A DNA stretch of 61,722 bases from Haloterrigena salina JCM 13891 (GCF_000337495.1 NZ_AOIS01000003.1:78971-140692), one strand, 5' to 3'. Counted from the first letter of the stretch, positions 21,643 to 56,447 are shown. Numbers and translations: made by a program. The notes: generated by a model not told the origin, from the sequence alone.

Positions 21643-21766
21643 CGGGGATTCAGTGTGACAGCAACGATAGTCAATGGATCATCGTCCCCATGAGAAAATG
21701 ATACTGAAACCACTGCTTACAGGCGCTACGAACTGTAGTCAGACATATAATAGAAGGGCATAACAA

Positions 21767-22738: not shown

Positions 22739-22743
22739 CAATA

Positions 22744-23646: not shown

Positions 23647-23648
23647 CC

Positions 23649-25724: not shown

Positions 25725-25838
25725 ACTATCCCCCCTACTCGCTCACGGCTGATGTCGTTCACTCCTTGCGGAAGGAGAGTTAGTACCTAGTTTCAGTTAC
25801 ATACCTGCAATCGGTTACTATACAGTTACGTTCGGCGG

Positions 25839-25845
25839 TTTTAAG
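25839..25845 (+). promoter_or_regulatory. TATA-like box of the HAD gene
   Basis: TTTTAAG about 30 bases before ATG 25872; gives the HAD gene its own promoter, separate from the importer operon. Confidence 0.45.
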
Positions 25846-25871
25846 ATCAGTGGCTTTGTCCAATCATACGA

Positions 25872-36881: not shown

Positions 36882-36988
36882 ACGCACTAGGACCGACGGT
36901 ATGCCAATAAATCCCGAGGTCGTACCCGGACTCGGTCTGGGAACCAGCCGATGCCGTTTCACAAAAACCTACATGCGATCGACGAGTT

Positions 36989-37819: not shown

Positions 37820-37866
37820 GCGGACGGATCCCCTGTGTTTATAGTAACGGAAGAGTTACAGGAGAT

Positions 37867-39362: not shown

Positions 39363-39668
39363 TCAGATCATTCGATACACCTCGTCCATCCACTGATCGG
39401 CGTCGTCGTCGAGAATGATCCCGTCCATTTCCTCGTCCCAGCGGGCCTGTGCGTCGCTCGTCTCCATCACGTTTCGAATCGCGTCCGGATCGTCGAGTTC
39501 CATGAACCCGAAGACGTGTCCGTCCGACTCGAAGACACTGTAGGTCTCGAGCCCGGCGTCGGAGTCGAGATACGTCTCCTCGAGCCACGTCGGGACGTCC
39601 TCGTGAGCCTCGCGGTACGCCTCGCGCTGTCCGTCAGCGAGTTCCAGATGGAATGCAATGCGTGCCAT
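39363..39668 (-). CDS. rhaM: L-rhamnose mutarotase
   Basis: A 101-residue protein matching the RhaM family in length and layout. It begins MARIAFHLELADGQREAYREAHEDV, where the Tyr-x3-His pair corresponds to the active site, and continues with FGFMELDDPDAI and ends with the EMDGIILDD and MDEVYRMI parts. It interconverts alpha and beta anomers of L-rhamnose in the cytoplasm. ATG 39668 is chosen over the frame opening at 39722. It is the last gene of the leftward set that includes the LLM enzyme and the dehydratase, about 200 bases downstream. Its presence is a good indicator that L-rhamnose is the substrate of this island. Confidence 0.86.
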   Translation of the reverse strand: MARIAFHLELADGQREAYREAHEDVPTWLEETYLDSDAGLETYSVFESDGHVFGFMELDDPDAIRNVMETSDAQARWDEEMDGIILDDDADQWMDEVYRMI

Positions 39669-39865
39669 ACGGGAGACGAATCGAGCGGGAGTCCCATAGC
39701 TATTCCCCCGACTCTCGACCACTCGAGCGGTACTCGCCGATATCGGATAGCCGGCAGTACCGGATGCCTCTCGGACGCGCCCAGGACGGACCGACGGCGG
39801 CGGAGGAACAGCGAACCGCTACAAAAACGAGACCGGGATCGGCGATCGACGGCTGCAACGCGGCG

Positions 39866-40897
39866 CTACCTGAACTGCGGCATCACTTCGTCGGCGAACA
39901 GTTCCATCCCGCCGGTGTCGGGGAAGTCGACGAACCAGCACTGGAACTTCGTGACGCCGGCGTCGATCCGCCGCTGGATGCCTTCGGCACACTCCTCGGG
40001 CGTGCCCATGAGGAAGTAGTCGCTGGCGATCTCCTCGGTCGTGATGTCGGCCTGGTCGACGTACTCCTCCTCGAACTGGATCGGAATCATCAGGTCGAGC
40101 AGGCGCTCGTACTTCTCGGGGTCGCGCGTACAGATGACGTGGCCGTCCCAAGAGTACTCGATCTCGTCCGGATCGCGGCCGACCGTCTCGCAGTGGTCCT
40201 CGATGACGTCGATCTTGTGCGCTACGGTCTCCGCCCTCCCGCTGAACACGTCCGTGTTCCAGACGTCGGCGTGTTTCGCGACGAGTTTGAGCGTCACGTC
40301 TTCGCCCTGTCCGCCGACGAGGATCGGCGGATGCGGATCCTGTATCGGACCGGGCTCGCAGTAGGCGCCGTCGATCTCGTAGTGGTCGCCCGCGAAGTAG
40401 GCGCCGTCGCCCGAATCGTCTGTCCACATCTCCTTCATCAAACGGATGCTCTCGTCCAAGCGCATCAGTCGCTCGAAGCCGTCGTGGTACTCCCAGCCGT
40501 AGGCCTCGTACTCGGGTTCGTGCCAGCCGGCGCCGAGCCCGAGCTCGAGCCGGCCGCCGGAGATCACGTCCAGCGTCGCCGCCATCTTCGCGACGAGCGC
40601 GGGGTTGCGGTAGTCGTTACAGAGGACAAGCGAGCCGAGGTTGATCTCGTCGGTGAGCCCCGCCAGCGCGGACAGCAGCGTCCAGCACTCGTACTCGGCG
40701 TGATCACGGCCGAGCATGAGGTGGTCGGGCGCCCAGGCGGCGTCGAAGCCGAGTTCCTCGGCCTTCAGGACGCCCTCCTTCGTGGTCTCCCAGTCGAGTC
40801 GTTCGTAACACGGCGTGTCGCGGTGGGAGGGATCCGTTCCCGACTCCGGCGCGCCCGCGAACACCGGCACGTTGTACTCGAATGTGACGTCAGTCAT
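39866..40897 (-). CDS. LLM-class flavin- or F420-dependent oxidoreductase
   Basis: A 343-residue luciferase-like monooxygenase family barrel. Typical parts are WAPDHLMLGRDH, the GGRLELGLGAGWHEPEYEAYG loop, PPILVGGQG and the C-terminal MGTPEECAEGIQRRIDAGV. Family members use FMN or, commonly in archaea, the deazaflavin F420, and include F420-dependent sugar-6-phosphate dehydrogenases. It lies three bases after the dehydratase gene (40901), so the two are co-translated. I infer it may oxidise L-rhamnose or 2-keto-3-deoxy-L-rhamnonate, but sequence alone does not prove a sugar substrate; a monooxygenase role is the alternative. Confidence 0.85.
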   Translation of the reverse strand: MTDVTFEYNVPVFAGAPESGTDPSHRDTPCYERLDWETTKEGVLKAEELGFDAAWAPDHLMLGRDHAEYECWTLLSALAGLTDEINLGSLVLCNDYRNPALVAKMAATLDVISGGRLELGLGAGWHEPEYEAYGWEYHDGFERLMRLDESIRLMKEMWTDDSGDGAYFAGDHYEIDGAYCEPGPIQDPHPPILVGGQGEDVTLKLVAKHADVWNTDVFSGRAETVAHKIDVIEDHCETVGRDPDEIEYSWDGHVICTRDPEKYERLLDLMIPIQFEEEYVDQADITTEEIASDYFLMGTPEECAEGIQRRIDAGVTKFQCWFVDFPDTGGMELFADEVMPQFR

Positions 40898-40900
40898 GGC

Positions 40901-42106
40901 TCACTCGACGGCGAAGTGTTCCAGCGCCTCGCGGTTCAGCTGGGTACTGATACCGGGTTCCTCGGGGAGCGGAATCGACCCGCCCTCGGGCGAGGGCGGG
41001 TTCTCGAAGATCACGTCGGCGTAGGTCGACTCCTTCTCCTCCTGCTGTTCCTGGAACCACTCCGGGGTCGGGAAGTACTCCGCCATGGGCATGTTCGTGT
41101 GCGCCGCGATGGCGTGCAGCGTCGGATTCGTGCCGGCGTGGGGAATCACGGGCACGTCGTGGACTTCGGCCATGTCAGCCACCTTCATCATCTCGGTGAT
41201 CCCGCCGACGCGGCCCACGTCGGGCTGGAGAATGTCGACGGCCTCCGCTTCGAGGAGGTCCTCGTGCCCCCAGCGGGTGAACTCGTGCTCGCCGCCCGAA
41301 ATCGGCATCGGCGCGGCCTCACGAACCTCGGCGTAGCCGTCGATGTCGTCGGCGATGACCGGCTCTTCGACCCACGCCATGTCGTACGGCTCGAGGCGGT
41401 CGAGCATTTTCTTCGCGTACCGAACCGACCAGCCCATGTAGGCGTCGGCCGCGATCTCGAGTTCGTCGCCGACGGCGTCGCGGACCGTCTCGACGACTTT
41501 CTCGTTCTCTTTCATTCCCGAGCGGCCGGCCTCCGGTCCGTGGGGGAAGCGCAGTTTCACCGCGTCGAAGCCGGCCTCGGCGTACTCCTGGGCCTCGCGC
41601 TCGAGTGTCTCCATGTCGACGGGGTGGAGGTTCGACGCGTAGGCGGGGATCTCGTCTTTGGTGGGGCCGCCGAGCAGTTCGTACACCGGCTTGCCGGCCT
41701 CCTTGCCCGCGATGTCCCACAGGGCTTGATCGACCGCGCTGATCGCCATGACGGCGACGCCCTTCCGACCGAAGGGCAGCGTCGCTCGGTACAGTTGCTC
41801 CCAGAGTTTCTCGCGCTGCGTGGGATCCTCGCCCACCACGATCTTCGAGAGCGTCTCCTCGACGACGGTGGCGATGGCGCCGGTACCCCAGTTCCCGACG
41901 CCGACGCCGGTGATGCCGGCGTCCGTCTCGACCTCGACGACGACGTCGCCCACGGGACCCATCCACTTGCGGCGGGCCTGGGGGTTCTCGCCGTCGACGT
42001 TCCGGTACTCCTCGTACTTCGACATGATCGTGACGAGGGGGAACTCGATAAACTCGCCCCACGACTCGTTGCTGATCTTGGTCGCGTTGATGTCTGTGAT
42101 CTCCAT
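40901..42106 (-). CDS. Enolase-superfamily sugar acid dehydratase, L-rhamnonate dehydratase-like
   Basis: A 401-residue mandelate racemase/muconate lactonising enzyme-family protein. Metal ligands are predicted as Asp in AADAYMGW (about 217-225), Glu in MAWVEEPV (about 244-250) and Glu in ISGGEHEFTRWGHEDLL (about 266). PHAGT (about 318) carries the acid/base His. GEHEFTRWG and ILQPDVGRVGGITE resemble the L-rhamnonate dehydratase group. It would convert L-rhamnonate to 2-keto-3-deoxy-L-rhamnonate. The frame has a TTG at 42121, but ATG 42106 is chosen. A TATA-like box lies at about 42152-42158. Followed closely by the LLM enzyme. Confidence 0.85.
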   Translation of the reverse strand: MEITDINATKISNESWGEFIEFPLVTIMSKYEEYRNVDGENPQARRKWMGPVGDVVVEVETDAGITGVGVGNWGTGAIATVVEETLSKIVVGEDPTQREKLWEQLYRATLPFGRKGVAVMAISAVDQALWDIAGKEAGKPVYELLGGPTKDEIPAYASNLHPVDMETLEREAQEYAEAGFDAVKLRFPHGPEAGRSGMKENEKVVETVRDAVGDELEIAADAYMGWSVRYAKKMLDRLEPYDMAWVEEPVIADDIDGYAEVREAAPMPISGGEHEFTRWGHEDLLEAEAVDILQPDVGRVGGITEMMKVADMAEVHDVPVIPHAGTNPTLHAIAAHTNMPMAEYFPTPEWFQEQQEEKESTYADVIFENPPSPEGGSIPLPEEPGISTQLNREALEHFAVE

Positions 42107-42151
42107 GGTAGTCGAACCCAATAGACTCGTATCGAGATGTGGGAAACAACC

Positions 42152-42158
42152 ATATAAG
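42152..42158 (-). promoter_or_regulatory. TATA-like box of the dehydratase operon
   Basis: CTTATAT on the minus strand, about 48 bases before ATG 42106, suggesting a short 5' leader. Confidence 0.4.
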
Positions 42159-42215
42159 TGTTCGCGATGTCGATCGAACGCCCGGCAGCGAGCGGTCGAC
42201 GAACCGGTCGACCGC

Positions 42216-42485
42216 TCAGAAGCGGTCCGCGCGACGGAGCAACACGAGACCGACGAGCACGTAGATCGTCCCGCTGATGAGGTTCATCGACGTGGGACTC
42301 CACGGAGCGTCCGACGGCATGTCGGCGAACAGCGGCGTCACGAGGACCAGGACGCCCATGATCAGGATGATCGCACCCGCGTACAGGTCGATCGGGAGGT
42401 CGTACTCGTCGGTTCCGGACCCCGGCTGCTCCCGCGGGTCATCGATCGGTTCGTCTTGCGTCTGCGTGAGTGAGTCGTCTGACAT
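42216..42485 (-). CDS. Small two-helix membrane protein after the symporter
   Basis: An 89-residue protein with an acidic soluble N-terminus (residues 1-30) and two hydrophobic helices (AGAIILIMGVLVLVTPLFA; SGTIYVLVGLVLLRR). ATG 42485 lies four bases after the symporter stop, so they are co-translated. It may be an accessory subunit of the symporter. I do not recognise its family. Confidence 0.68.
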   Translation of the reverse strand: MSDDSLTQTQDEPIDDPREQPGSGTDEYDLPIDLYAGAIILIMGVLVLVTPLFADMPSDAPWSPTSMNLISGTIYVLVGLVLLRRADRF

Positions 42486-42489
42486 GGTG

Positions 42490-44121
42490 TTACGCTTGGA
42501 AGATGATGATCGCGGAACCGAGTAACGCGAACGCGACGCCGATCGTTACGACGGCGATTCGCTTCACTCGCGGGGTCAGAGTGGCGGAATCCCCGGTAAG
42601 CGACGATTCGACGAAGTTGGTCGGCGATTCGTGGGCTTTCGGGGTCGTCAGGAGGCTGACGGTCACGACGATTCCGATTACGAGGAGGAACGCGTACAGC
42701 GAGCGAGAGTACAACGCCTCGTGTCCGAGCGCGAACCCCATGTAGACGCTGACCGCCAACCCGATCGCGATACCGAGTATCGCACCCGTGCTCGTCGAAC
42801 CGTCCCAGAGACCACCGACGATCGCCACGGCGGCGAACGTCGGCATGATCGTCGCGAGAATCGACTGCGCGACGAGGTACATCGAGTCCTCCATCGAGAA
42901 CAGGTACGCGACGCCGATACAGGCGACCATGAAGACGATCCCCGCGATCCGACCGACCCGAACGTAGTGGGACGGCTTCCGGTCCGACGCCACGTAGCGA
43001 CGGTAGATCCGTTCCGTGAACAGCGTCTGGAAGTTGTTGAGTTGCGAGTCGACGCTCGAGAGGACGCCCGCGATCAGGCCGACGACGACGACGCCGTACA
43101 GACCCGGCGGCATGACGTCGCTGATGAGCATCGGCATCGCGTGATCCGCGACCTCGAGGTTCGGATAGCGGACGGCGGCGACGAGCCCCGGGACGAGGAT
43201 GAAAAGCGGGACGAGGATCGCGTACCAGATGCTCGTGTACAGGTAGCCGATCTGCGCGGATTCCGGATCTTCGGCGGAGAGCGGTCGCTGGAGGACCTGC
43301 GATTCGGCGCTCCAGTAGGAGATCGCCGACGCGAGAAAGCCGAAGTACAGCAGGAACACCGCGATCGGGCCGCCGACCGGGAATTCGGCTGCCAGCGGGT
43401 GATCCGACGGCGTCATCGACGCCTGGTGCGTCGCCAGCCCGTCGATCAGGCCGGAGATGCCCCCCACCATGTACAGCGAAACCGGGAGCAGGAGGATCAG
43501 CGGAACGAACATGAGGACGAACTGGATGGTGTCCGAGCCGGCGACGGCGCCGAATCCGCCGAGGATCGTGTAGGCCGTTCCGACGACGATGATCGCGCCC
43601 ATCGAGAGCCAGAGATTCCATCCGAGGAGCGTGTTCAGAACGAGCGAGCCGGCGTAGATGTACAGCCCCATGTTGACGAACATCCAGACGAACGTCCAGA
43701 TGAAGTCGTACGCGTCGCCGACCGGTCTCGAGAAGCGTCGCGTGAGCCACTCGCCCAGCGAGAACGCCTGTATCTGCCTGATGAACGGAATGATCGCGAC
43801 GGTCGCGAGGACGATGGCGATCGCGTTCGTAATTGGGCCCAGCAGGACGATGATCCCGTACGCGTACGCGAACCCGGCGAGTCCGAGGAAGTCGTTCGCG
43901 TTCAGATTGGTCGCGACGGTCGAGAACGCCTGTACCGACGGCGGAAGCGACCGGTCCGCGAGGAACGTGCTCGCGGAGTCAGCGGTGTTCCGACGCATGT
44001 ACGCGCCGAACACGACCAACCCGACGATAAACACGCAGATGGCGATCCATTCGGTGAGGACGAGCGTCTGTCCGCCGATACCCTGGAGCGGATAGGGGCC
44101 CACAGTGGTAAGTGCAATCAT
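42490..44121 (-). CDS. Sodium:solute symporter (SSS family)
   Basis: A 543-residue carrier with about thirteen helices. Family motifs include NLNANDFLGLAGFAYAYG, the GGFGAVAGSDTIQFVLMF segment and the late AGVLSSVDSQLNNFQTLFTERIYRR. It couples solute import to sodium entry. It sits between the dehydratase and the rhamnosidase, in the same direction as both, so L-rhamnose or another sugar from the island is the probable solute. The start at 44121 has an AT-rich run (44151-44160) about 34 bases upstream. Confidence 0.9.
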   Translation of the reverse strand: MIALTTVGPYPLQGIGGQTLVLTEWIAICVFIVGLVVFGAYMRRNTADSASTFLADRSLPPSVQAFSTVATNLNANDFLGLAGFAYAYGIIVLLGPITNAIAIVLATVAIIPFIRQIQAFSLGEWLTRRFSRPVGDAYDFIWTFVWMFVNMGLYIYAGSLVLNTLLGWNLWLSMGAIIVVGTAYTILGGFGAVAGSDTIQFVLMFVPLILLLPVSLYMVGGISGLIDGLATHQASMTPSDHPLAAEFPVGGPIAVFLLYFGFLASAISYWSAESQVLQRPLSAEDPESAQIGYLYTSIWYAILVPLFILVPGLVAAVRYPNLEVADHAMPMLISDVMPPGLYGVVVVGLIAGVLSSVDSQLNNFQTLFTERIYRRYVASDRKPSHYVRVGRIAGIVFMVACIGVAYLFSMEDSMYLVAQSILATIMPTFAAVAIVGGLWDGSTSTGAILGIAIGLAVSVYMGFALGHEALYSRSLYAFLLVIGIVVTVSLLTTPKAHESPTNFVESSLTGDSATLTPRVKRIAVVTIGVAFALLGSAIIIFQA

Positions 44122-44150
44122 CGTACATACCGACGATCGACGCGCGTTGC

Positions 44151-44160
44151 ATTAAATATT
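44151..44160 (-). promoter_or_regulatory. TATA-like region of the symporter
   Basis: AATATTTAAT on the minus strand about 34 bases before ATG 44121, within a longer AT-rich run to 44182. Confidence 0.4.
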
Positions 44161-44239
44161 TACGTTAATAATTATATAATAAGTGCAATCGCTTGCCGGA
44201 AGATCGCTCGGAAGGTCGCGCCGTAGCGACGAGTCGGCG

Positions 44240-47200
44240 CTAGCGAACCGCGAACTCGTACGTGCCGGATCCGAGTTCGACGACGAGGGAATCACCGTCT
44301 TCGCGAACCGACTCGATCCCCGCGGTCTCCTCGGCGGATAGCGACGATCCAGACTCGGCCACGTCGGCCTCGGCGGCGTCCGGCAAGCGAACGGTTGCGT
44401 CCGTGTTCCAGGGAATGGTGACGGACAGTTCGTACGACCCGGCGTCGGCGTCGCGGCGCCACTCGGTCGCTAACTCGCCGTTGCGCGTCTCGAGACTGGC
44501 CGTGACCCACGAGAGATCGTCGACGAGCGCGGGAGCGACGGTCACGCGGTCGGTGACGGGGCGGTCGCCGATCCGAACGCCCGCGAGTACTTCGTAGAAG
44601 AACTCCGAGACGTGGGTGAACGGTGAGTGATTGAAGGAGTTCATCCCGTCGCCGACGCGGTCGTCGCTGTCCCAGCGTTCCCACATGGTCGTCGCCCCGT
44701 TACGAGCCATGTACACCCAGCCGGGTCGGTCGGGCTGGCTGACGACGTCGTACGCGACGTCCGCGTGACCGTGTGCGGTGAGCGTGTGGAGGAGCGGCCT
44801 GGTCCCGAGGAATCCCGTTTTGAGCGTGCGACCGTCGGCTTCGACCTTCTCGACGAGGTTGGCCACCACTGACTCGACCCTCGAGTCGGGAACCAGACCG
44901 AGAAAGAGCGGAACCGCGTACGACGACTGGGTTCCCGGCCCGTACGCGGCCTCGTCGGCATCGAAGAATCGCTCGTTGAACGCGTCCGCGATCCGATCGG
45001 CTCGATTTCGATACGCGTCCGCGTCCGCGTCGTTCTCCAGGACGGCGGCGATCTTCGCGAACGTATCCGTGACCTGGTAGAGGAATGCCGTGTTGTACAG
45101 GTCGTGTGGGAGACCGCGTCGGTCGTCCACGTTCTCGAAGGCGAGCCAATCGCCGAACTTCCCGTAGTCGTCCGTCAGAATGCCGTCCTCCGCGACCGAG
45201 AGCCAGTACTCGACGTAGTCTCGCATCCCTTCGTACTGCTCTTGAAGGAGGCGCTCGTTCCCGTCGTGGCGGTAGAGATACCAGGGGATCATCACCCTCG
45301 TGATCGACCACGTCGGATCGGCGGGATCCTCGCTCGCCTTGTTCGGAATCACGTCCGGAACGTAGCCCATCTCCGAGGCGACGTCGTCGTGATCGCGGGC
45401 CCACTTCTCGTCGAATCGGGCGGCGTCGAAGTTGAACAGGAGCGACCGCGTGGAGATGTGGGCGTCACCCGTCCACCCGAACCGTTCGTCGCGCTGCGGA
45501 CAGTCCTCGGGAACGGAGTGCGTGTTGCCGCGAAGCCCCCACACGGCGTTGTGTTGGACCCGATCGAGATCCTCGTTCGAACACGAAAAGGTTCCGCGAC
45601 GGTCCATCGCGGTGTGGACGACCTTCGCTGTGACGAGGTCCGGATCGAACCCGCCCGGATAGCCCGTGATCTGCGCGTACCGGAAGCCGTGGTAGGTGAA
45701 TCGCGGCTCGTACCGCTCTCCGTCGGCGCCGGCGGCGACGTAGACGTCCGTCGCGTCCGCGCTCCGAAGGTCGGTCGTCGACAGCTCCCCGTCTTCGGTG
45801 AGCCGTTCGGCGTGGCGAAGGGTGATCTCGTCGCCCTCGTCCGGATCCCGGATCTCGATCTCGAGCCAGCCGGTCAGGTTCTGGCCGAAGTCGAGGATCG
45901 GGCCGTCTGGATGCTCGTGAATCTCCGCCACGTCGAACGTCTCGACGATGCGCATCGGTTCGACGCGCTGCGGTCGAAGCGCCCCGCCGGGATCGGCGAC
46001 GACGGATGCGGGATCCCAGTCCCTGTCGTCGAACCCGGGCGAACGCCACCCGTCCTCGGACAGTCGAGCGTCGAACAGTTCGCCGTCGTAGATGTCGTTC
46101 TCCCGGATCGGACTCGCCGTCGCCCGCCAGTCACCGTCGGTCGCGATCGTCCGCGTCGAGCCGTCTTCGAACGTCGCAGTCAGTACGAGCCGGGCGCGCG
46201 GAGAGCCGTCGGGAACCCAGTAGGCACCCCCCTTCGAGAACCAGCCGCGACCGAGCCACACGCCGATCGCGTTCTCGCCGACCGCGACCCGGTCGGTCAG
46301 ATCGTAACTCGAGTAGCAGACGCGCTTCTCGTAGTCCGTCCAGGCGGGATTCAGCCGGTGATCGCAGACCCGTTCGCCGTTGACGTGGAGTTCGCCGTAG
46401 CCGACGGCGGCGAGGTGGGCGCGGACCGATTCGACCGGTTCCTCGAGAGCGAACTCCGTCCGCAGCAGTGGCGACGTCGCCGCGAGTTCGGACGCGACGC
46501 GCCCGTTCGCGAGGTGATCGCGGCCCCACGCGTCGGTTTCGACGGACGACGAGGCCTCGACCGGTCGTCCGCGAGCCAGGTCTTCGTTCCCGTTTCGCAC
46601 CTCGAGCGCCGCCAACGCGAAACACTGCCAGGCGTCGACGCGTTCGGTCCGCCGACCCGCACTCTGGGCGTGAGACGACTCCTCGGCGAGCGGTTCGAAC
46701 GCGAAGCGGTCCGTCGCGGTGACCCGCACGTACCGGCCGTCGGCCTCGAATCCGTCGTGCGTGCGGACGGGTTCCGTCTCCTCGGGGACGTCATCCGGGG
46801 GCTCGCCGTCGGCTTCGTCGGACGCGTCGACCTCGAGGACGGTCGTCGAGGATTCGAATCGCGGATCGTCCGCGACCTCGATCCGATAGGCGTTCGGAAA
46901 GCCGAAGCCGTCGAGCGGGTTGTCGAACCAGGATCTCGTGACCGCCACGTCGTCCGGCGTTCGAACGACGGTGACCGGCGACGACGGGTGAAGATCGACG
47001 GCCGTGATCCGTCGGCTGGAGCCGAGGTCCACCTGGACCCACTCTTCGACCGATTCGTCCGCGCTCCGCCACCGGCTTCGCCACCCGTTGGTGTCTCCCG
47101 CTCCCGGCTGGTGGGTTATCCATTCGCCACACCACCGCTCGGGGCGCAGCGCCGTGACGAAAGCAGACGGGTCCGCCCAATCGGTTTCACCCTCGTCGGT

Positions 47201-47509
47201 CCAGAGTTTCACCGACCAGTGATACCGCGTGTCGGAACCGAGGTCGGGACCGTCGTATGGAACGTTCGTCGACAGCGACGATTCGACGCGGCCGGAGTCC
47301 CAGAGCGAGCCCCGACCGGAGCCGACCGCACTCCTGTCGTGACCGACCACGATCCGATACGCGGTCTGGCGAGTTCCGCGAGCATCGGTCGAAACGCGCC
47401 ACGAGAACCGAGGCGGTTCCGTCGGGTCGACGTTCGTCGGGGCCGGTTCGTACTCGACTCGAAGATCCGTCGGGCGACGGTCACCCGCGGTATCGGCTAC
47501 CGAAGACAT
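44240..47509 (-). CDS. Alpha-L-rhamnosidase (GH78)
   Basis: A 1089-residue GH78 enzyme. The N-terminus holds fibronectin-like beta domains (EPAPTNVDPTEPPRFSWRV), then a discoidin-like sugar-binding insert (about 160-290), the WLGRGWFSKGG segment and the six-hairpin catalytic domain with CPQRDERFGWTGDAH (about 668-682), whose acidic residues form the active site, and a beta-sandwich C-terminus. It releases L-rhamnose from the non-reducing end of glycans or glycosides. Starting at ATG 47509 (MSSVADTAGDRRPTDL) there is no signal peptide, so it works inside on imported material. The upstream extension to 47659 is basic and unlikely coding. This is the key sign for rhamnose use. Confidence 0.92.
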   Translation of the reverse strand: MSSVADTAGDRRPTDLRVEYEPAPTNVDPTEPPRFSWRVSTDARGTRQTAYRIVVGHDRSAVGSGRGSLWDSGRVESSLSTNVPYDGPDLGSDTRYHWSVKLWTDEGETDWADPSAFVTALRPERWCGEWITHQPGAGDTNGWRSRWRSADESVEEWVQVDLGSSRRITAVDLHPSSPVTVVRTPDDVAVTRSWFDNPLDGFGFPNAYRIEVADDPRFESSTTVLEVDASDEADGEPPDDVPEETEPVRTHDGFEADGRYVRVTATDRFAFEPLAEESSHAQSAGRRTERVDAWQCFALAALEVRNGNEDLARGRPVEASSSVETDAWGRDHLANGRVASELAATSPLLRTEFALEEPVESVRAHLAAVGYGELHVNGERVCDHRLNPAWTDYEKRVCYSSYDLTDRVAVGENAIGVWLGRGWFSKGGAYWVPDGSPRARLVLTATFEDGSTRTIATDGDWRATASPIRENDIYDGELFDARLSEDGWRSPGFDDRDWDPASVVADPGGALRPQRVEPMRIVETFDVAEIHEHPDGPILDFGQNLTGWLEIEIRDPDEGDEITLRHAERLTEDGELSTTDLRSADATDVYVAAGADGERYEPRFTYHGFRYAQITGYPGGFDPDLVTAKVVHTAMDRRGTFSCSNEDLDRVQHNAVWGLRGNTHSVPEDCPQRDERFGWTGDAHISTRSLLFNFDAARFDEKWARDHDDVASEMGYVPDVIPNKASEDPADPTWSITRVMIPWYLYRHDGNERLLQEQYEGMRDYVEYWLSVAEDGILTDDYGKFGDWLAFENVDDRRGLPHDLYNTAFLYQVTDTFAKIAAVLENDADADAYRNRADRIADAFNERFFDADEAAYGPGTQSSYAVPLFLGLVPDSRVESVVANLVEKVEADGRTLKTGFLGTRPLLHTLTAHGHADVAYDVVSQPDRPGWVYMARNGATTMWERWDSDDRVGDGMNSFNHSPFTHVSEFFYEVLAGVRIGDRPVTDRVTVAPALVDDLSWVTASLETRNGELATEWRRDADAGSYELSVTIPWNTDATVRLPDAAEADVAESGSSLSAEETAGIESVREDGDSLVVELGSGTYEFAVR

Positions 47510-47664
47510 GACTCCGATGTCACCGGTTCCGCCCGTAAATGTTTGCCCGAGCCCTCGAGAGACGGCGGTACAGCGTGACAGTTCCACGCGTTCGTAATCG
47601 AGGGGAACGGTGGGTCGGCTGGTACCGCCCGCAATCAGTCGACGGCCGGTCGATTGCACCTAAA

Positions 47665-47673
47665 GTTATATAT
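47665..47673 (+). promoter_or_regulatory. TATA box and ribosome-binding site for the MDR dehydrogenase
   Basis: TTATATATG about 55 bases before ATG 47724, leaving a leader of about 25-30 bases that has GAGGT (47711-47715) in position to act as a ribosome binding site. Confidence 0.45.
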
Positions 47674-47723
47674 GTGAGAGTCCCCCACGTATTGATAGCT
47701 CGACCAGAGCGAGGTAACCCTAG

Positions 47724-48758
47724 ATGAAGGCCATAGTACATACCGGTCCCAGAGCCATCGAGATCCGCGAGCGCGAGAAGGCCGTCCCCGACGACGACGA
47801 GGTGCTCGTTCGCGTTCACTCGGCGGGACTCTGTGGTAGCGACGCGCACGCGTACAAGTACGAAGACGGCTACGAGTGGATTCCGATTCCCCGAACCATG
47901 GGCCACGAGTACTCCGGCGAGGTCGTCGAAGTCGGCGACGACGTCACCGACTTCGCGGTCGGCGACCACGTCGTCGAGGAGCCGATCCACGACTGCGGCT
48001 CGTGTTTTCAGTGCAAGAACGGGCAGCCGAACGTCTGCCAGAACTTCGAGATCACGGGCATGCACAACGACGGCGCGTACACCGAGTACACGACGGTCCG
48101 GCCGCGAGATTTGCACCTGATTCCCGAGGACGTACCGCTCGGCCACGCGAGCATCACCGAGCCGCTCAGCATCGCGACGCGGGCGGTGTTCGATCAGTCC
48201 GCGGTGACACCGGGCGATACCGTCCTCGTCGAAGGGCCCGGCCCGATCGGCGTGCTCGTCGCGGCCGTCGCGGACTCGCTGGGCGCCGACGTCGTCGTCT
48301 CTGGACTGGGCAAGGACACCACGTACCGGCTGCCGCTGGTCGAAGACCTCGGGATCGAGACGATCGATATCGAGGCGACTGATCTCGAAGCAATCGTCGA
48401 CGAGCGGACCGACGGCGTCGGCTTCGACGCGGTGTTCGATACGACCGGTCACTCGAGCGGCGTCGAGATGGCCATCGACCACGTCCGGAAGGGCGGACAG
48501 GTCGTCGTCGTCGGTCTCCCCGGCTCCCCCAGCGAAGTGTTCATGACGCCGGTCGTCCGCGGCGAGGTCGACGTGAACACCTCCTACGGCTCGACCTGGC
48601 GGAACTTCGAACAGGCCATTCGACTCCTCTCGGCCGGCGCGATCGACGCCGACGCGATCATCGATCGCTCGTTCAGCGTCGACGAGCCGACCGCCGCGTT
48701 CGAGGCGTTCCTCGAGTCGGAGACGTGCAAGCCGGTCTTCTCGTTTGCGGACAGCTGA
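47724..48758 (+). CDS. Zinc-dependent sugar (alcohol) dehydrogenase, MDR family
   Basis: A 344-residue medium-chain dehydrogenase. Catalytic zinc ligands are expected at Cys of GLCGSDAHAYKY and the His/Glu of TMGHEYSGE; the structural zinc site is CGSCFQCKNGQPNVC. The cofactor fold is EGPGPIGVLVAAVA. It resembles threonine/sorbitol/galactonate-type dehydrogenases. In the island it is a candidate for one of the two oxidations of the rhamnose route, either L-rhamnose to the lactone or 2-keto-3-deoxy-L-rhamnonate to the 2,4-diketo acid. It is divergent from the rhamnosidase. Confidence 0.88.
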   Translation: MKAIVHTGPRAIEIREREKAVPDDDEVLVRVHSAGLCGSDAHAYKYEDGYEWIPIPRTMGHEYSGEVVEVGDDVTDFAVGDHVVEEPIHDCGSCFQCKNGQPNVCQNFEITGMHNDGAYTEYTTVRPRDLHLIPEDVPLGHASITEPLSIATRAVFDQSAVTPGDTVLVEGPGPIGVLVAAVADSLGADVVVSGLGKDTTYRLPLVEDLGIETIDIEATDLEAIVDERTDGVGFDAVFDTTGHSSGVEMAIDHVRKGGQVVVVGLPGSPSEVFMTPVVRGEVDVNTSYGSTWRNFEQAIRLLSAGAIDADAIIDRSFSVDEPTAAFEAFLESETCKPVFSFADS

Positions 48759-48900
48759 GCGATCGCCTCTCCTGCAGGTGCGCCCGCTTACCGGCGCATC
48801 GGCCGTCATCGACGGCGTCCGACCAGCCTAACGGCACCGTCTCTCCGCTCACGGAATTACAAGTCGAATCTTTGATATTGATGACTCGAGGACGGTGCGT

Positions 48901-50616
48901 ATGGTTCAGCTCACGGATCCCGACGGTGCGATCACGGTCGACGTGGACCCGAACGGAACGTTACGCGTCGACCGATCCGGAGAGACGGTTTTCGAACCGT
49001 CGCCCTACGGGCTTCCGACGCCGTACGGCTCGTTTCCCGAGGAGTTCGAGCTCGACGACGTGCGAACCCGGACGATCGACGACTCGTACGAACTCGTTCA
49101 CGGGAAACGGTCGAGTCCGCGCCACCGAGCGGTCGAGAAGACGCTCTCGTTCGAGGGCGACGGCGGCTCGGTGGAGCTCCAGATCCGCGCCGCGGACGAC
49201 GGAATCGCGTACCGATACCGGTTGCGAGGCGAGCGGGACGAGTATCTCCACCCGGGCGACGAGTCCGGCTTTCGGTTCCCGCCGGGCGCCGTCGCGTGGC
49301 TCTCCGACTACCAGGCCAACCACGAGGGACACAGCCGGCAGATCCCGGTAACAGCCGTCGACGGAGAGTACAATCTCCCCGGCCTCTTTCACGTTGACGA
49401 CACCTGGGCGCTCGTCTGCGAGGCCGGCGTCGACGGCGACTGGATGGCCGGCCGACTCGTCGGGACGCGCGACGACGCGCCGGGCGTCGACATCGGATTT
49501 CCCGAGTCCCATCCGACGTCACACGTGTGGGCCAACGACCCCGCGACGACGCCGTGGCGCGTCGCGATCATCGGCGACCTCGCGACCGTGGTCGAGTCGA
49601 CGCTCCCGACCGACCTCGTCGACGGGCCGCGGATCGACGGCGACTGGGTCGAACCAGGCCGCGTCGCGTGGTCGTGGTGGTCGAGCGGCTCGAGCGTCCG
49701 GTCGCTCGAGGAGGAGCGTGCGTACGTCGACTACGCCGCGGAGCGAGGGTGGGAGTACGTGTTGGTCGACGCCGGCTGGGACGACGAGTGGCTCCCCGAC
49801 CTCGTCGCGTACGCGAACGACACCGGCATCGACGTCGAACTCTGGTCGCACTTCATCGACCTGAACACGGAGTCCAAGCGCGAGGAGCGCCTCTCGAGGT
49901 GGGCCGAGTGGGGCGTCGCCGGCGTCAAGGTCGACTTCATGGACAGCGACGACCAGGGGCGGATGCAGTTCTACGACGACCTCGCTCGCGACGCCGCCGA
50001 ACACGAACTGACCGTGAACTTCCACGGGTCGGCCGTCCCGACGGGACTCCGTCGGCGCTGGCCCCACGTCATGACCTACGAGGGCGTTCGCGGCGCCGAG
50101 TACTACAAGTGGACGACGAATACGCCCGAACACAACGCGACGCTCCCCTTCACCCGCAACGTCGTCGGTCCGATGGACTACACGCCCGTGACGTTCTCCG
50201 CCGATCGGCGCGCGACGTCGGCGGGCCACGAACTCGCGCTGTCGGTCGTCTACGAGTCCGGACTTCAGCACTACGCCGACGGCATCGAGATCTACGAGTC
50301 GTACCCGATCGCAGAGCGCGTCCTCGAGGCCGTGCCGGCGGCCTGGGACGAGACGAGGTTCCTCCGCGGCCGACCCGGATCGGAGGCCACGTTCGCGCGA
50401 CGGGCGGGCGACGACTGGTTCGTCGGCTCGATCACCGCCGGTCCGGCGGGTTCGATCGAGGTTCCGCTCTCGTTTCTCGACGGGAAGACGACGGCCGTCA
50501 TCGCGACCGACGCCGACGAGGAACACGGCCTCGAGGAGTACGAACGCACAGTCTCGCCGGACGAATCGCTTCGCGTGTCGGTCGCGGAGAACGGCGGCTT
50601 CGTCGTCCGGCTCTGA
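48901..50616 (+). CDS. Glycoside hydrolase family 97 (retaining-type) alpha-glycosidase
   Basis: A 571-residue GH97-type enzyme. N-terminal beta-sandwich (about 1-230), a TIM barrel (about 240-480) and a short beta C-terminus follow the family plan. AGVKVDFMDSDDQGRMQFY (KVD from residue 343) holds the Asp nucleophile of the retaining branch, and TYEGVRGAEYYKW (about 394) the Glu expected to act as acid/base. Retaining members are alpha-galactosidase-like. Start ATG 48901 is used rather than the GTG at 48895. There is no signal peptide. It would cut a further alpha-linked sugar from the imported oligosaccharide. The MDR gene precedes it by about 140 bases. Confidence 0.87.
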   Translation: MVQLTDPDGAITVDVDPNGTLRVDRSGETVFEPSPYGLPTPYGSFPEEFELDDVRTRTIDDSYELVHGKRSSPRHRAVEKTLSFEGDGGSVELQIRAADDGIAYRYRLRGERDEYLHPGDESGFRFPPGAVAWLSDYQANHEGHSRQIPVTAVDGEYNLPGLFHVDDTWALVCEAGVDGDWMAGRLVGTRDDAPGVDIGFPESHPTSHVWANDPATTPWRVAIIGDLATVVESTLPTDLVDGPRIDGDWVEPGRVAWSWWSSGSSVRSLEEERAYVDYAAERGWEYVLVDAGWDDEWLPDLVAYANDTGIDVELWSHFIDLNTESKREERLSRWAEWGVAGVKVDFMDSDDQGRMQFYDDLARDAAEHELTVNFHGSAVPTGLRRRWPHVMTYEGVRGAEYYKWTTNTPEHNATLPFTRNVVGPMDYTPVTFSADRRATSAGHELALSVVYESGLQHYADGIEIYESYPIAERVLEAVPAAWDETRFLRGRPGSEATFARRAGDDWFVGSITAGPAGSIEVPLSFLDGKTTAVIATDADEEHGLEEYERTVSPDESLRVSVAENGGFVVRL

Positions 50617-50709
50617 GGCCGACCGTCGGGGACCGCTCTCCCGGTCGCGATGCGACTGTCGTTTTCTCACAAGGTTTAGTATCGTCGGATCCGTCACTGG
50701 TCGTGAACG

Positions 50710-51579
50710 ATGGTATTTGATACGCATACTCACGCCTGGGCGCAACCGAACCGGGACCACCCCTGGGTGAACGGCCCGCTCGTCGAAACCGTCGACGAGT
50801 TCGACGTCGACACGGTCTACACCGCCGAGAAGCTCCTCAAGGATATGGACGCCGTCGGTATCGACGAGGCGGTGGTCGTCGGCTACCCGATCTGCGAGTG
50901 GACCGACAACTGGTACACCGTCCAGTGCGTCGAGGAGCACGACGACCTCACCGGGATCGTGATGCTCGACCCGTTCGCCGACGGCGCGGCCGACCGGCTG
51001 CGCGAGGCGATGGCCGTCGACGGCGTGCTCGGCGTCCGCCTCGGGGCGATCTGCCCGTACGATCGCATGTGGGAGACGTTCGATCCCGGTGTCGAGTGGC
51101 TGCGCGAGGCGGTCGACGAGACCGCGTTCTGGGAGGCCGCGCGCGAGACCGACGCGCTGGTCCAGATCCTGGCCCACGTGGACCAGCTCGAGCAGGTGCT
51201 CGACCTCGTCGAGACCTATCCCGAGCTCTCCTACGCGCTCGATCACTTCTGTCACGCCGGTCCCGAGGTCCCACCCGGCGAAGCGCTCGCCGCACTCGAG
51301 CCCCTCGCCGTCGACGGGTACGACGTCGCCGTGAAGATTTCCGAGGTCGTCCACCGCTCGGAGGAGGGGTTCCCCTACGCCGACATGCACGACCACGTCC
51401 GCTGGCTGCTCGAGACCTTCGGCCGCGAGCGGATCGTCTGGGGCTCGGACTTCCCGAACGTCAGCGACGAGGCGAGCTACGAGGAGAGCCTGCGGTGGCT
51501 CGAGCACGTCGACTGTCTCTCGAAGAACGACCGCGAGTGGCTCACCGGTCGGGCGATGCGGGAATTGTGCGGAATCTGA
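50710..51579 (+). CDS. Amidohydrolase-type sugar lactonase, L-rhamnono-1,4-lactonase-like
   Basis: A 289-residue amidohydrolase-2 family protein. FDTHTHAW (D-x-H-x-H) at the N-terminus, the His in DHFCHAG and the Asp of VWGSDFPN mark the metal site; the helix ending in NDREWLTGRAMRELCG is typical. This family includes lactonases of L-rhamnonate and L-fuconate. In the island it fits hydrolysis of L-rhamnono-lactone to L-rhamnonate. It follows the GH97 gene by 93 bases and meets the FAH gene tail to tail. Confidence 0.83.
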   Translation: MVFDTHTHAWAQPNRDHPWVNGPLVETVDEFDVDTVYTAEKLLKDMDAVGIDEAVVVGYPICEWTDNWYTVQCVEEHDDLTGIVMLDPFADGAADRLREAMAVDGVLGVRLGAICPYDRMWETFDPGVEWLREAVDETAFWEAARETDALVQILAHVDQLEQVLDLVETYPELSYALDHFCHAGPEVPPGEALAALEPLAVDGYDVAVKISEVVHRSEEGFPYADMHDHVRWLLETFGRERIVWGSDFPNVSDEASYEESLRWLEHVDCLSKNDREWLTGRAMRELCGI

Positions 51580-51582
51580 GCG

Positions 51583-52425
51583 CTACTGTTCGACGACGTG
51601 GTTCTCGAGCGTTCCGATCCCCTCGACCTCGGCTTCGACCGTGTCGCCGGGCGAAAGCAGTTCCGGCGGGTCGCGGAAGATGCCGACGCCGCCAGGAGTG
51701 CCGGTCGAGATGACGGTACCGGGCTGGAGCGTCATGCGGTGGCTGAGGAACTCGATGGTGTCGCCGACGTCGAAGATGAACTCCGCCGTCGAGGACTCCT
51801 GTTTCACCTCGCCGTTGACCCGGAGTTCGACGCCGACGTCGTTGGCGTCGATCGAGTCGGGCGCGGTCAGGGCCGGCCCCATCGGCGCGAACGTGTCGTA
51901 GCTCTTGCCTCGGAAGAACTGGCCGTCCTCGAACTGGGCGTCGCGCGCGCTGACGTCGTTGACGACCGTATAGCCGGCGACGTACTCCTCGGCCTCGTCA
52001 GCCGAGACGTCGCAGGCGGTCCGGCCGATGACGACGCCGAGTTCGACCTCGTAGTCGACCTGCTCGACGTCTTCGGGGTGGACGATCGGCGCGTCGGGCC
52101 CGGTGACGCTTCCGGGCGATTTCGCGAACAGCATCGGGGTGTCGGGGATCTCCTCGTCCTGCTCTTCGGCGTGGTCGTAGTAGTTCAGGCCGACGCAGAT
52201 GATCTGCTCGACGGAGGGGATCGGCACCAGCCGGTCCCCGTCCGCGGGACCGTCGATCTCCGGGAGTTCGCCGGTCTCGACGGCGCGCTGGACGCGGCGG
52301 CGGTAGCCGGGCGTGGCGAGGTCCTCGAGTGACGGTGCTCCGAAGCGGTCCAGCGCGTAGGTCCGGTCGTCGACGGAAACGCCCCAGCGGACGCCGCCGT
52401 CGGTCGCGAATCGAACGAATTGCAT
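51583..52425 (-). CDS. FAH-family hydrolase, 2,4-diketo-3-deoxy-L-rhamnonate hydrolase candidate
   Basis: A 280-residue fumarylacetoacetate hydrolase-family protein. The metal ligands are in DYEVELGVVIG (two Glu) and VNDVSARDAQ (Asp); GLNYYDHAEE precedes them and ISTGTPGGVG is near the C-terminus. The family splits C-C bonds of diketo acids. Here it should cleave 2,4-diketo-3-deoxy-L-rhamnonate to pyruvate and L-lactate. The frame extends to 52710, but the family begins around MQFVRFATDGG, so ATG 52425 is taken. Adjacent on the same strand is the L-lactate oxidation complex. Confidence 0.87.
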   Translation of the reverse strand: MQFVRFATDGGVRWGVSVDDRTYALDRFGAPSLEDLATPGYRRRVQRAVETGELPEIDGPADGDRLVPIPSVEQIICVGLNYYDHAEEQDEEIPDTPMLFAKSPGSVTGPDAPIVHPEDVEQVDYEVELGVVIGRTACDVSADEAEEYVAGYTVVNDVSARDAQFEDGQFFRGKSYDTFAPMGPALTAPDSIDANDVGVELRVNGEVKQESSTAEFIFDVGDTIEFLSHRMTLQPGTVISTGTPGGVGIFRDPPELLSPGDTVEAEVEGIGTLENHVVEQ

Positions 52426-52552
52426 CGTCTCGAAATTCCGGTCCTGAATCTTGAATCTTTCTCTCGACGGATCGCAGGCGGAACCATCCGCCCCGTCGCA
52501 CGGACTCGCCGAGCGAACCGGTCTCGTCCGGTGGACCGAAACCGTCCGGAGA

Positions 52553-54778
52553 TCACTCGGACCCGTCCGGGTCGACCAGCGAGACCGGATGCCGCGGCTG
52601 CCGAGCGAGGAGGCCGTCCAACTGCTCGAGACACGACGTCCCGCTCGCGACGACCGTTCGATCGGCGGCGTCGGGCGCCTCGAACTGTTCTTGCAGTCGG
52701 TCGCCGACATCCACGCTCAACTCGTAGTACTCGCGCTTGTAGCCGAAGCTCCCAGCCATCCCGCAACACTCGACATCGGAGGTGCGGACGTCGTAGCCCA
52801 GCCGTTCGAGGACGTCCGTCGTGTAGGCCTCGAGTTCGAGCGTCCGCTGCTGGCAGTGGGAGTGGTACGCGAGGTCGGAGCCGACGCCGTTCCCGTTGTC
52901 AGCGCTCCGCAACGGCGCGGGATCGACCCCGTTCTCCAGCAGGCCGTAGACGTACTCGAAGACCTCGTAGCTGCGCTCGGTGATGGCTTGGTAGCGTCGC
53001 TCGTCGAGCAGTCGCTCGTACTCGCCGCGGAACATCGCGAGGTCGCTGGGCTCGACGGCGACGACGTCGTACCCCGCTTCGAGGTAGGGCTCGAGATCCG
53101 CGGAAACCTCGCGGGCGTGGTCTTCCGCGGTGGCGATCATCCCCTGGGAGAGCGGCGCGCGGCCCGAGGAGGCGACCTCGGGGACCTCGACCGCGACGCC
53201 CAGCGCCTCGAGCGTTCGCACCGTCGCCTTCCCGCGGTCGGTCCGGATGTAGTTCGTGTAGAGGTCAGGGTAGACGACCGCGTGGTAGTCGGCGTCAACG
53301 GGTCGGGGAACGTCGCGGTTCCGGAACCACTCCACGAACGTCTCGCGCTCGAACTCGGGCAGGTCCCGGCGGCGATCGACCCCGAGGACGCGTTCCATGG
53401 CCAGCCGCGAGGGCAGCGTCTCCGCGACCCAGTTCGACACGGGCGCGGTCGCTGAGCCGAGTTTCGCCAGCGTCGAGAAGTTGCCGAAGAAGCGCTTTTG
53501 CAGGTCCATCCCGGCTGGCTCTTCGTCCGGCGAGAGCCCCTCGACCAGAAAGTCGAGTCGACCGTCCTCGGCCCCGCGATTGCGCCGGTCGCGGACGACC
53601 GTGTTGATCCATGGGATGTCGATCTTCACCGGGCACTGGTTGACACACCGCGAGCAGCCGGTACAGAGGTCGTTGAACTCGTCGGCCGACTCCTGACCGT
53701 GAACGCCGGCCTCCCAACCGGTCGCGATCCCGCCCGAGTAGGTCTCGCCGCCGAAGACGTGGCCGCCGACGGACTGGAAGTTCGCACACGAGTTCGAGCA
53801 CGCACCGCAGCGGATGCAGTACAACGTCTCCCGGAGCTGGTCGTCCTCGCGCATGTCCATCCGGCCGTTGTCCAGCAAGACGAGGTGGAACTCCCGGTCG
53901 GCCGGGTCGTCGGCGATCGGCCCGTCGTCGTCGAAGTCGACCGGCGGCGTCGACACCGGCGGCGAGAACAGCGAGACGTAGGAGGTGATGTCCTGGCCCG
54001 TCCCCGAGCGCGCGATCAGTTCGACGAACGGCTGGAGGTCCTCGAACGTCGGCACGATCTTCTCGACGCCCGCCACGGCGACGTGGGTGTCGGGCACGGC
54101 GACGGTCTTTCGAGCGTTCCCTTCGCTGGTGACCAGCGCCATCGTCCCCGTGTCCGCGGTCACGAAGTTCGCGCCGGTGACGCCGATGTCCGCGTCCTCG
54201 ATTCGTTCGCCGAGATACTCCCGTGCGAACGCGGTCAACTCTTCGGCCGTCTCGAGTTCCGTATCCGGGTCGAAGTACTCGTTGAACAGGGCGGCGATCT
54301 CCTCCCGGGACTGGTGGATCGCCGGCGCGACGAGGTGGCTGGGCGCCTCGTCGGCCACCTGCAGGACGAACTCGCCGAGATCGGTCTCCCAGACGTCGCA
54401 GCCCTCGGCGGCGAGGGCCTCGTTGAGGTCGATCTCCTCGGTCGTCATCGATTTCGACTTGACGACGGTCTCGGCGTCCCGCTCGCGGGCTAGTTCGCGG
54501 ACGTACCGGTTCGCGTCGGCGGCGTCGTCGGCGACGTAGACGGTCCCGCCGTTTTCCTCGACCGTCTCGCGCACCCGCTCGATCAGTTCGGGGAGGCGCT
54601 CGATCGCGTCCTCCTTGATCGCCCGCGCCCGGTCCTTGTAGGCGTCGTAGTCCTCGAGTCGGGCGACGGACTCGTATCGGCCCTCGTTGAACCCGCGGGC
54701 GTTGCGCTCGACGCTGTCGCCCTCCGTGGCCATGATCTGACGGATCCGCTCGGCCTTCCGGGATCGTTCGCTCGACAT
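52553..54778 (-). CDS. LutB-LutA fusion, L-lactate oxidation iron-sulfur subunit
   Basis: A 741-residue fusion. Residues about 1-300 are the LUD domain of LutB, followed by two 4Fe-4S sites, CIRCGACSNSCANF (about 320) and CTGCSRCVNQCPVKIDIPW (about 370). The C-terminal 250 residues are CCG domains as in LutA, with HSHCQQRT (about 638) and ECCGMAGSFGY (about 666). The usual lutABC arrangement has these as two genes. Together with LutC it oxidises L-lactate to pyruvate. The start ATG 54778 overlaps the lutC stop by one base (TAATG). The longer open frame to 55480 runs through lutC in another phase. Lactate is the expected product of the FAH step. Confidence 0.9.
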   Translation of the reverse strand: MSSERSRKAERIRQIMATEGDSVERNARGFNEGRYESVARLEDYDAYKDRARAIKEDAIERLPELIERVRETVEENGGTVYVADDAADANRYVRELARERDAETVVKSKSMTTEEIDLNEALAAEGCDVWETDLGEFVLQVADEAPSHLVAPAIHQSREEIAALFNEYFDPDTELETAEELTAFAREYLGERIEDADIGVTGANFVTADTGTMALVTSEGNARKTVAVPDTHVAVAGVEKIVPTFEDLQPFVELIARSGTGQDITSYVSLFSPPVSTPPVDFDDDGPIADDPADREFHLVLLDNGRMDMREDDQLRETLYCIRCGACSNSCANFQSVGGHVFGGETYSGGIATGWEAGVHGQESADEFNDLCTGCSRCVNQCPVKIDIPWINTVVRDRRNRGAEDGRLDFLVEGLSPDEEPAGMDLQKRFFGNFSTLAKLGSATAPVSNWVAETLPSRLAMERVLGVDRRRDLPEFERETFVEWFRNRDVPRPVDADYHAVVYPDLYTNYIRTDRGKATVRTLEALGVAVEVPEVASSGRAPLSQGMIATAEDHAREVSADLEPYLEAGYDVVAVEPSDLAMFRGEYERLLDERRYQAITERSYEVFEYVYGLLENGVDPAPLRSADNGNGVGSDLAYHSHCQQRTLELEAYTTDVLERLGYDVRTSDVECCGMAGSFGYKREYYELSVDVGDRLQEQFEAPDAADRTVVASGTSCLEQLDGLLARQPRHPVSLVDPDGSE

Positions 54779-55290
54779 TATTCCGCGTCGTCCTCCACGA
54801 TGATCGCGTGGGTCTCTCGCGGGCCGTGCACGCCGTACACCAGTTCGCCCATGTCGGCGGTCGCGCTCGGACCGGTCGCGAGCACGGCGTCGTCGTCGCC
54901 GTCGCGGAACCGCTCGCCCAAGCGCTCGAACGCCGCGGCCATGTCGTCGACGAGATCCCGCTCGCGGACGACGACCACGTGCCGGTCGGGGAAGAGCCCG
55001 GCGAGTTCGGCACCCGCCGGCGTCGACTCGAGGACGACCGTCCCGTAGTCGGCGACGCCGAGCGCGGCGGCCGTGACGCCGCAGGCCGCCTCGCGGAGCT
55101 GGTCGGGCGTCGGCTCGAGGACGACGCCGGTCCCCTCGAGCGAAACGTCCGCGAAGGGAAGCGGCGCGCCGATGGCGGGCTCGTCGACGACGTCGGCGAG
55201 CGCGTCCTGGAACGCGGCCGGCGAGGTCCGGGTAACGGCGGTCCGGACGCTGCCGAGGTTCGTCTCGAACGTCTCTAGCTGTGTCTGCAT
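54778..55290 (-). CDS. lutC: LutC, L-lactate oxidation subunit (LUD domain)
   Basis: A 170-residue LUD-domain protein, the partner of the LutB-LutA fusion. MQTQLETFETNLGSVR starts at ATG 55290 and the domain continues with GVADYGTVVLESTPAGAELAGLFPDRHVVVVRERDLV and ends GELVYGVHGPRETHAIIVEDD, a typical LutC ending. The upstream frame to 55518 is low-complexity and basic and is not used. First gene of the lutC-lutBA pair; its stop overlaps the next start. Confidence 0.88.
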   Translation of the reverse strand: MQTQLETFETNLGSVRTAVTRTSPAAFQDALADVVDEPAIGAPLPFADVSLEGTGVVLEPTPDQLREAACGVTAAALGVADYGTVVLESTPAGAELAGLFPDRHVVVVRERDLVDDMAAAFERLGERFRDGDDDAVLATGPSATADMGELVYGVHGPRETHAIIVEDDAE

Positions 55291-55682: not shown

Positions 55683-56447
55683 ATGTCCAGCAAACCACGA
55701 CAGCCGGTTCAGGCCGCCGCGACGACGTTCAGGATCATCGAGACGCTGCACGAACTCAACGGGGCCGGCGTCTCCGAACTCGCCGACGAACTCGAGATGC
55801 CCAAGAGCACGGTTCACGACCACCTCCAGACCCTGAACGAGGCCGAGTATCTCGTCAAGCGGAACGGCGACTACCACGTCGGCGCGCGATTTCTCGAGTT
55901 AGGCGGGTTCGCTCGCAGTCAGATGAAGCTGTACCAGATCGCCTCTCCCGAAATCGAGAAGTTGGCGGAGGAAACGGGCGAGCACGCGAATCTCATGATC
56001 GAAGAGCACGGCAAGGGAATCTTCCTCAACAAGGCGAAAGGCCGAGACGCCGTGAACCTCGACACGCACATCGGCAAGCGCGTGCACCTCCACACCACCG
56101 CGCTGGGGAAGGCGATCCTATCGAAGCGACCCGAGTCGGCCGTCGACGAGGTAATCGAACGCCACGGTCTCCCCCGTGTGACCGAGAAGACGCTCACGGA
56201 CGCCGACGAACTCAAGAGCCAGCTGGCGGAGATCCGCGAACGGGGGTACGCGATCGACGACGAAGAACGGGTCGCCGGAATGCGGTGTGTCGCGGCCCCG
56301 ATCTGCGACGGTGACGGGGACCCCCTCGGAGCGATCAGCGTCTCGGGGCCGACGAACCGATTCAACGACGAGACGTTCAGGACCGAGATTCCAAAGACCG
56401 TTCTGAGCACCGCGAACGTCATCGAAGTGAACATGACCTACTCCTGA
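55683..56447 (+). CDS. IclR family transcription regulator
   Basis: A 254-residue regulator. The N-terminal winged helix (VQAAATTFRIIETLHELNG, VSELADELEMPKSTVHDHLQTL) is followed by an effector-binding domain with LHTTALGKAILSKRP, RGYAIDDEERVAGMRCVAAPI and GAISVSGPTNRF, all characteristic. ATG 55683 is set by the TATA box; the open frame runs upstream to 55329 without start support. It lies between the lut genes and the ABC importer, and probably controls the island with a sugar acid or lactate as effector. Confidence 0.9.
   Translation: MSSKPRQPVQAAATTFRIIETLHELNGAGVSELADELEMPKSTVHDHLQTLNEAEYLVKRNGDYHVGARFLELGGFARSQMKLYQIASPEIEKLAEETGEHANLMIEEHGKGIFLNKAKGRDAVNLDTHIGKRVHLHTTALGKAILSKRPESAVDEVIERHGLPRVTEKTLTDADELKSQLAEIRERGYAIDDEERVAGMRCVAAPICDGDGDPLGAISVSGPTNRFNDETFRTEIPKTVLSTANVIEVNMTYS

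Follow-up and report, generated by a model that had tools for sequence, protein, structure and literature searches.

An rhc-type L-rhamnose cluster in a Haloterrigena-like archaeon and the luciferase-like oxidoreductase gene beside its dehydratase gene

Which sugar is degraded by the genes clustered between 39.4 and 56.4 kb of the window, and which enzyme carries out the first oxidation? The window, the whole stretch of 61,722 nucleotides that was analysed, comes from a Haloterrigena-like archaeon and is part of contig C3 of a 4.84-Mb genome that is 99% complete. A preliminary description had proposed a near-complete L-rhamnose pathway from glycan to pyruvate, an interpretation that is, as a whole, partly supported. 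All gene families that it named were found, by Pfam and NCBIfam matches or by ortholog comparison, but it overlooked a GH97 glycosidase, an IclR-family regulator and a small membrane protein. Table 1 gives the order and orientation of the genes. The gene models are based on Pfam and NCBIfam matches and on gene lengths in the H. salifodinae plasmid pHTS220, and the start of the GH78 gene agrees with the 3270-bp H. salifodinae gene. The gene island is real and its co-location is not due to chance, the same set recurring in dozens of haloarchaea.

Table 1. Genes of the rhc-type island, with positions counted from the first nucleotide of the window
Feature	Position	Strand	Details
RhaM, L-rhamnose mutarotase	39363..39668	-	101 aa from internal Met; PF05336, 51.7 bits; 97% to H. 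salifodinae ortholog
LLM, luciferase-like F420/flavin oxidoreductase	39866..40897	-	343 aa; PF00296; core gene of all rhc clusters
RhcD, L-rhamnonate dehydratase	40901..42106	-	401 aa; PF13378, PF02746; 94% to H. xanaduensis RhcD; recombined allele
Small membrane protein	42219..42485	-	~89 aa; two hydrophobic helices, judged by eye from translation
SSS sodium:solute symporter	42490..44121	-	PF00474; TIGR00813 above cut-off
GH78 alpha-L-rhamnosidase	44240..47509	-	1089 aa; PF17389, 347.8 bits; further GH78 domains
RhcE ortholog, zinc MDR, 2-keto-3-deoxy-L-rhamnonate dehydrogenase	47724..48758	+	71% to H. halophila RhcE
GH97 glycosidase	48901..50616	+	PF10566, PF14508, PF14509
RhcC ortholog, amidohydrolase-type L-rhamnono-lactonase	50710..51579	+	PF04909; 65-67% to proteins named rhcC
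RhcF ortholog, 2,4-diketo-3-deoxy-L-rhamnonate hydrolase, FAH family	51583..52425	-	PF01557; 57% to Halocatena RhcF
LutB-LutA-like fusion, L-lactate oxidation	52553..54778	-	LUD PF02589, 4Fe-4S PF13183, CCG PF02754
LutC-like LUD protein	54778..55290	-	170 aa; PF02589
IclR-family regulator, probable RhcR counterpart	55683..56447	+	PF01614, PF09339; IclR genes in most rhc clusters

The island is very probably devoted to L-rhamnose, obtained from imported rhamnosides and degraded by the diketo-hydrolase route, with activities, substrate and regulation assigned by orthology to the Haloferax pathway. L-rhamnose is favoured because RhaM and GH78, two rhamnose-specific companions, share the cluster. 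Moreover, as in haloarchaeal rhc clusters, orthologs of RhcC, RhcE and RhcF lie together with that of RhcD; the four orthologs, from annotated haloarchaeal plasmids, carry NCBI names that are automatic transfers (identities in Table 1). The GEHEFTRWG motif noticed earlier is indeed present in the dehydratase, in which residues D226, E252, E278, D301 and H328 (numbering of the 406-aa ORF), which we take to be the catalytic residues of the RhmD type within the enolase superfamily, are invariant. Among sugar-acid dehydratase models, the best NCBIfam match of RhcD is L-rhamnonate dehydratase, with 263.6 bits for an equivalog cut-off of 393, and that of the FAH protein is 2,4-didehydro-3-deoxy-L-rhamnonate hydrolase (DhyDRhmHlse, 201.9 bits); the best NCBIfam matches of the island enzymes lie below the equivalog cut-offs. 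It is highly improbable that a different deoxy-sugar or sugar acid, such as L-fucose, D-galactonate or D-arabinose, is the substrate of the island: enolase-superfamily and FAH enzymes are broad, and the galactonate and arabinonate dehydratase models match RhcD as well, but both best models belong to rhamnonate degradation, RhaM and GH78 come from families specific for rhamnose, and the orthologs are rhc-named.

The diketo-hydrolase L-rhamnose pathway of Haloferax volcanii and its list of enzymes were reportedly described by Reinhardt, Johnsen and Schonheit in 2019, and the RhcC, RhcD, RhcE and RhcF orthologs agree with the earlier proposal that the island follows this route. Rhamnosides would be taken up by the SSS symporter and cleaved in the cytoplasm by GH78, with GH97 acting on the remaining glycan, and RhaM would equilibrate the L-rhamnose anomers. 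Oxidation at C1 to the lactone would be performed either by the island LLM or by an SDR encoded off the island. RhcC would then open the lactone ring, RhcD would dehydrate the acid to 2-keto-3-deoxy-L-rhamnonate, the RhcE-type MDR would oxidise the latter, and cleavage by RhcF would yield pyruvate and L-lactate. The L-lactate would be oxidised to pyruvate by LutBA and LutC, as had been suggested before, and the island is probably under the control of an RhcR-like activator of the IclR family. Among the island promoters, the search for a shared operator gave only weak 15-16/18 matches, none of them consistent. The LUD, 4Fe-4S and CCG domains of a LutABC/LUD system are found in the LutB-LutA fusion, and the LUD domain in LutC. 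The proposed role of Lut matches known biology, since Haloferax volcanii catabolises rhamnose to pyruvate and lactate and grows less well on this sugar once its LUD pair HVO_1692/1693 is deleted (PMC8305020).

The rhc pathway is thus already known, and its presence here is no new discovery; the island confirms that it is widespread in haloarchaea, where it is paired with different transporters and glycosidases. The Haloferax volcanii rhc cluster shares with the island the RhcC, RhcD, RhcE and RhcF orthologs, the mutarotase and the IclR regulator, as well as an LLM gene beside rhcD, as seen in other Haloferax species. It differs from the island in its RhcG-J ABC transporter, replaced here by the SSS symporter, whereas the island has GH78 and GH97 built in, carries its Lut genes inside the cluster and has no cluster SDR. 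Among named relatives, H. salifodinae comes closest at this locus: the rhc island of its plasmid pHTS220 is colinear over 20.5 kb and has an identical gene order. The bacterial Lra diketo-hydrolase pathway would use the same chemistry, with a lactonase, a dehydratase, a dehydrogenase and an FAH hydrolase. Its KDR dehydrogenase is an SDR, whereas the island has a zinc MDR, and no LLM gene lies beside the RhcD relative in the one bacterial neighbourhood examined.

Transport and glycan cleavage vary among these clusters. Orthologs of the RhcG-J ABC (CUT1) transporter are absent from the island and from many of the clusters examined, and are therefore variable rather than defining. The SSS symporter was found in seven of the rhc clusters examined, including that of the window, never alongside a CUT1 ABC transporter and in 6/7 cases together with GH78; it is probably the importer of rhamnose or rhamnosides. 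The small membrane protein encoded between the symporter and rhcD, where a hypothetical protein is annotated in H. salifodinae, is possibly a symporter accessory. The proposal that the pathway starts from glycan would require import. No Tat or Sec signal is visible, as judged without a predictor, in GH78 (which starts MSSVADTAGDRRPTD) or in GH97 (which starts near MVQLTDPDGA), and rhamnosides would thus be split intracellularly.

What is new here is that the LLM gene is a core member of the rhc cluster, bound to the pathway no less strictly than the dehydratase gene. Neither the NCBI annotation nor the literature examined gives it a function. Among 292 haloarchaeal genomes, 37 encode RhcD orthologs, accompanied by RhcC in 37/37, RhcE in 36/37 and RhcF (at least 55% identity) in 34/37. 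An LLM ortholog (at least 75%) is found in the same 37 genomes, in each case as the immediate neighbour of rhcD, and is missing from all 255 others (Fisher p ~1e-47, the relatedness of genomes being ignored). All full-length rhcD orthologs in named haloarchaeal contigs are also accompanied by LLM. In Salinigranum salinum (L051), the LLM ortholog occurs with RhaM, an SDR and an amidohydrolase but with a non-orthologous dehydratase, which indicates that LLM tracks the pathway and not the dehydratase alone. In comparison with Haloferax denitrificans, LLM is the second most conserved protein (83%), after RhcD (89%) and before MDR (72%), RhaM (69%), RhcC (64%) and RhcF (57%). Two rhc copies (L076 and L077) are present on a Haloarcula litorea plasmid, with LLM broken and unannotated in one of them. 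Two rhcD-positive genomes (G179 and G243) carry RhcD, LLM and SDR without a close RhcF ortholog, and may use another last step.

The LLM protein scores 230.9 bits against TIGR03560, the model of F420-dependent LLM oxidoreductases, for a curated cut-off of 231.4, and its Halocatena ortholog is so named by NCBI. A structure model built from a diverse alignment reached a pLDDT of 78.8, an earlier one from close orthologs alone being poor (pLDDT 51). The fold of this predicted model is nearest to the F420-dependent methylene-H4MPT reductase Mer (Z 33.6), followed by luciferase (31.8), F420 alcohol dehydrogenase and FMN monooxygenases (Z 31-32), with FGD at Z 30.4-30.6, a comparison that cannot separate F420 from FMN. 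Relatives of about 45% identity, termed LLM2, occur in other sugar clusters, some of which contain genes for an SDR, a D-mannonate dehydratase and an SMP-30 lactonase, others those for a cyclase and a sugar ABC transporter.

The earlier claim that each step has a candidate in the island finds no support in that form. The MDR is the RhcE ortholog and belongs to step 4, not to step 1. As an L-rhamnose dehydrogenase it was rejected as first choice because of the naming of its orthologs, although MDR sugar 1-dehydrogenases do exist. The rhc clusters of Haloferax and several Haloarcula contain an SDR, presumed to be their L-rhamnose dehydrogenase; its best match in the whole genome studied here has 38% identity, and none was found at 1e-60. 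Since this SDR is absent and the MDR serves step 4, step 1 is left without an assigned island enzyme, the uncharacterised LLM being its sole island candidate. Among the 37 rhcD-positive genomes, the SDR is variable and not defining: it is present in 16, absent in 21, and found in 0/14 of the window's own family. In the archaeon studied here, step 1 would be catalysed either by LLM or by an off-island SDR, which are rated roughly equal.

An SDR encoded elsewhere in the genome (G000:C57:108515-109336) is 65% identical to a second SDR, which adjoins LLM in the Halopiger rhc cluster. Its match to the NCBIfam L-rhamnose 1-dehydrogenase model Lra1 is below the cut-off (170.7 of 400 bits), and many general SDR models outscore Lra1. 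At a loose threshold, the Halopiger SDR family is widespread (62/255 rhcD-negative genomes), and only its close subfamily is strongly associated with the pathway, occurring in 12/37 rhcD-positive but 1/255 rhcD-negative genomes. This subfamily lies within ~15 kb of rhcD in five genomes and is found mostly where the first SDR is missing (11/21 genomes, as against 1/16 of those that have it), but these counts are confounded by phylogeny, most carriers belonging to the window's own family. In addition, four genomes without the first SDR also lack the second family (E<=1e-60), and the neighbours of the gene on C57 are arabinan/xylan genes, namely GH43, arabinofuranosidase and Gfo/Idh genes, so that L-arabinose may be its substrate. 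That this enzyme performs step 1, with LLM playing another role in the pathway, is quite possible but short of probable.

The assignment of step 1 to the island LLM itself must be considered somewhat unlikely. It would account for the strict association of LLM with rhcD, and for its retention in Salinigranum salinum beside a non-orthologous dehydratase. Besides lactate oxidation, only two steps of the pathway need an oxidoreductase, one of which is filled by the MDR, and the 21 genomes devoid of the Haloferax/Haloarcula SDR include the four that lack the second SDR too. The nearest folds, by VIA-align, are F420-dependent, and F420 synthesis is likely in this genome, as judged from CofD. However, genomes with the SDR carry LLM just as regularly, so that LLM is no simple replacement. 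Sequence comparison brings it no nearer to F420 sugar dehydrogenases (51-53 bits for FGD) than to FMN monooxygenases (70 bits for RutA), FGD ranking below RutA, Mer and SsuD, and in the fold comparison the Z-scores of the F420 and FMN enzymes are only 1-3 apart. Moreover, sugars without a phosphate group are poor substrates of the F420 sugar dehydrogenases known so far (PMC6279831). The wider proposition, that LLM is an obligate enzyme of rhamnose catabolism in archaea, which uses coenzyme F420 or a flavin to oxidise C1 of L-rhamnose, is unlikely. If LLM did oxidise L-rhamnose with F420, the coenzyme would have a role in haloarchaeal sugar catabolism; according to one review, only one F420-dependent reaction had been reported in halophilic archaea, where the importance of F420 is enigmatic (PMC8305020).

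The history of rhcD differs from that of its neighbours. Its flanks are mostly 95-100% identical to H. salifodinae in 60-base windows, whereas the ORF (from about 42110 to 40905) is ~80% identical to H. salifodinae and ~92% to Halopiger. The H. salifodinae rhcD belongs to the other of two allele classes, with 76% protein identity. These classes cut across taxonomy in the rhcD tree, whereas in the LLM tree the window groups with H. salifodinae. Forcing the window rhcD together with those of Haloterrigena and Natrinema, a group picked after seeing the data, was rejected (AU p ~1e-44). The two classes differ at about two dozen positions, including G/H303 and V/C305, which adjoin the catalytic Asp301. 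On these sequence comparisons, rhcD alone has been replaced, in a single-gene swap. Such a swap within an otherwise conserved operon illustrates neatly how haloarchaea recombine gene by gene.

Finally, the surroundings of the island hold further genes. Positions 34995-38856 encode a heparinase II/III-like protein, a TIM-barrel sugar isomerase-like protein and a D-2-hydroxyacid dehydrogenase, and H. turkmenica and H. salifodinae have the same genes next to their rhc islands. Next to the H. turkmenica island lies a mycofactocin biosynthesis cluster (mftA, B2, C, E and F; L011:24502-29307). Elsewhere in the window, the region 20000-26000 has a GC content of 47-50%, as against ~65%, encodes an Opp/Dpp-type ABC transporter and a HAD hydrolase, and looks recently acquired.
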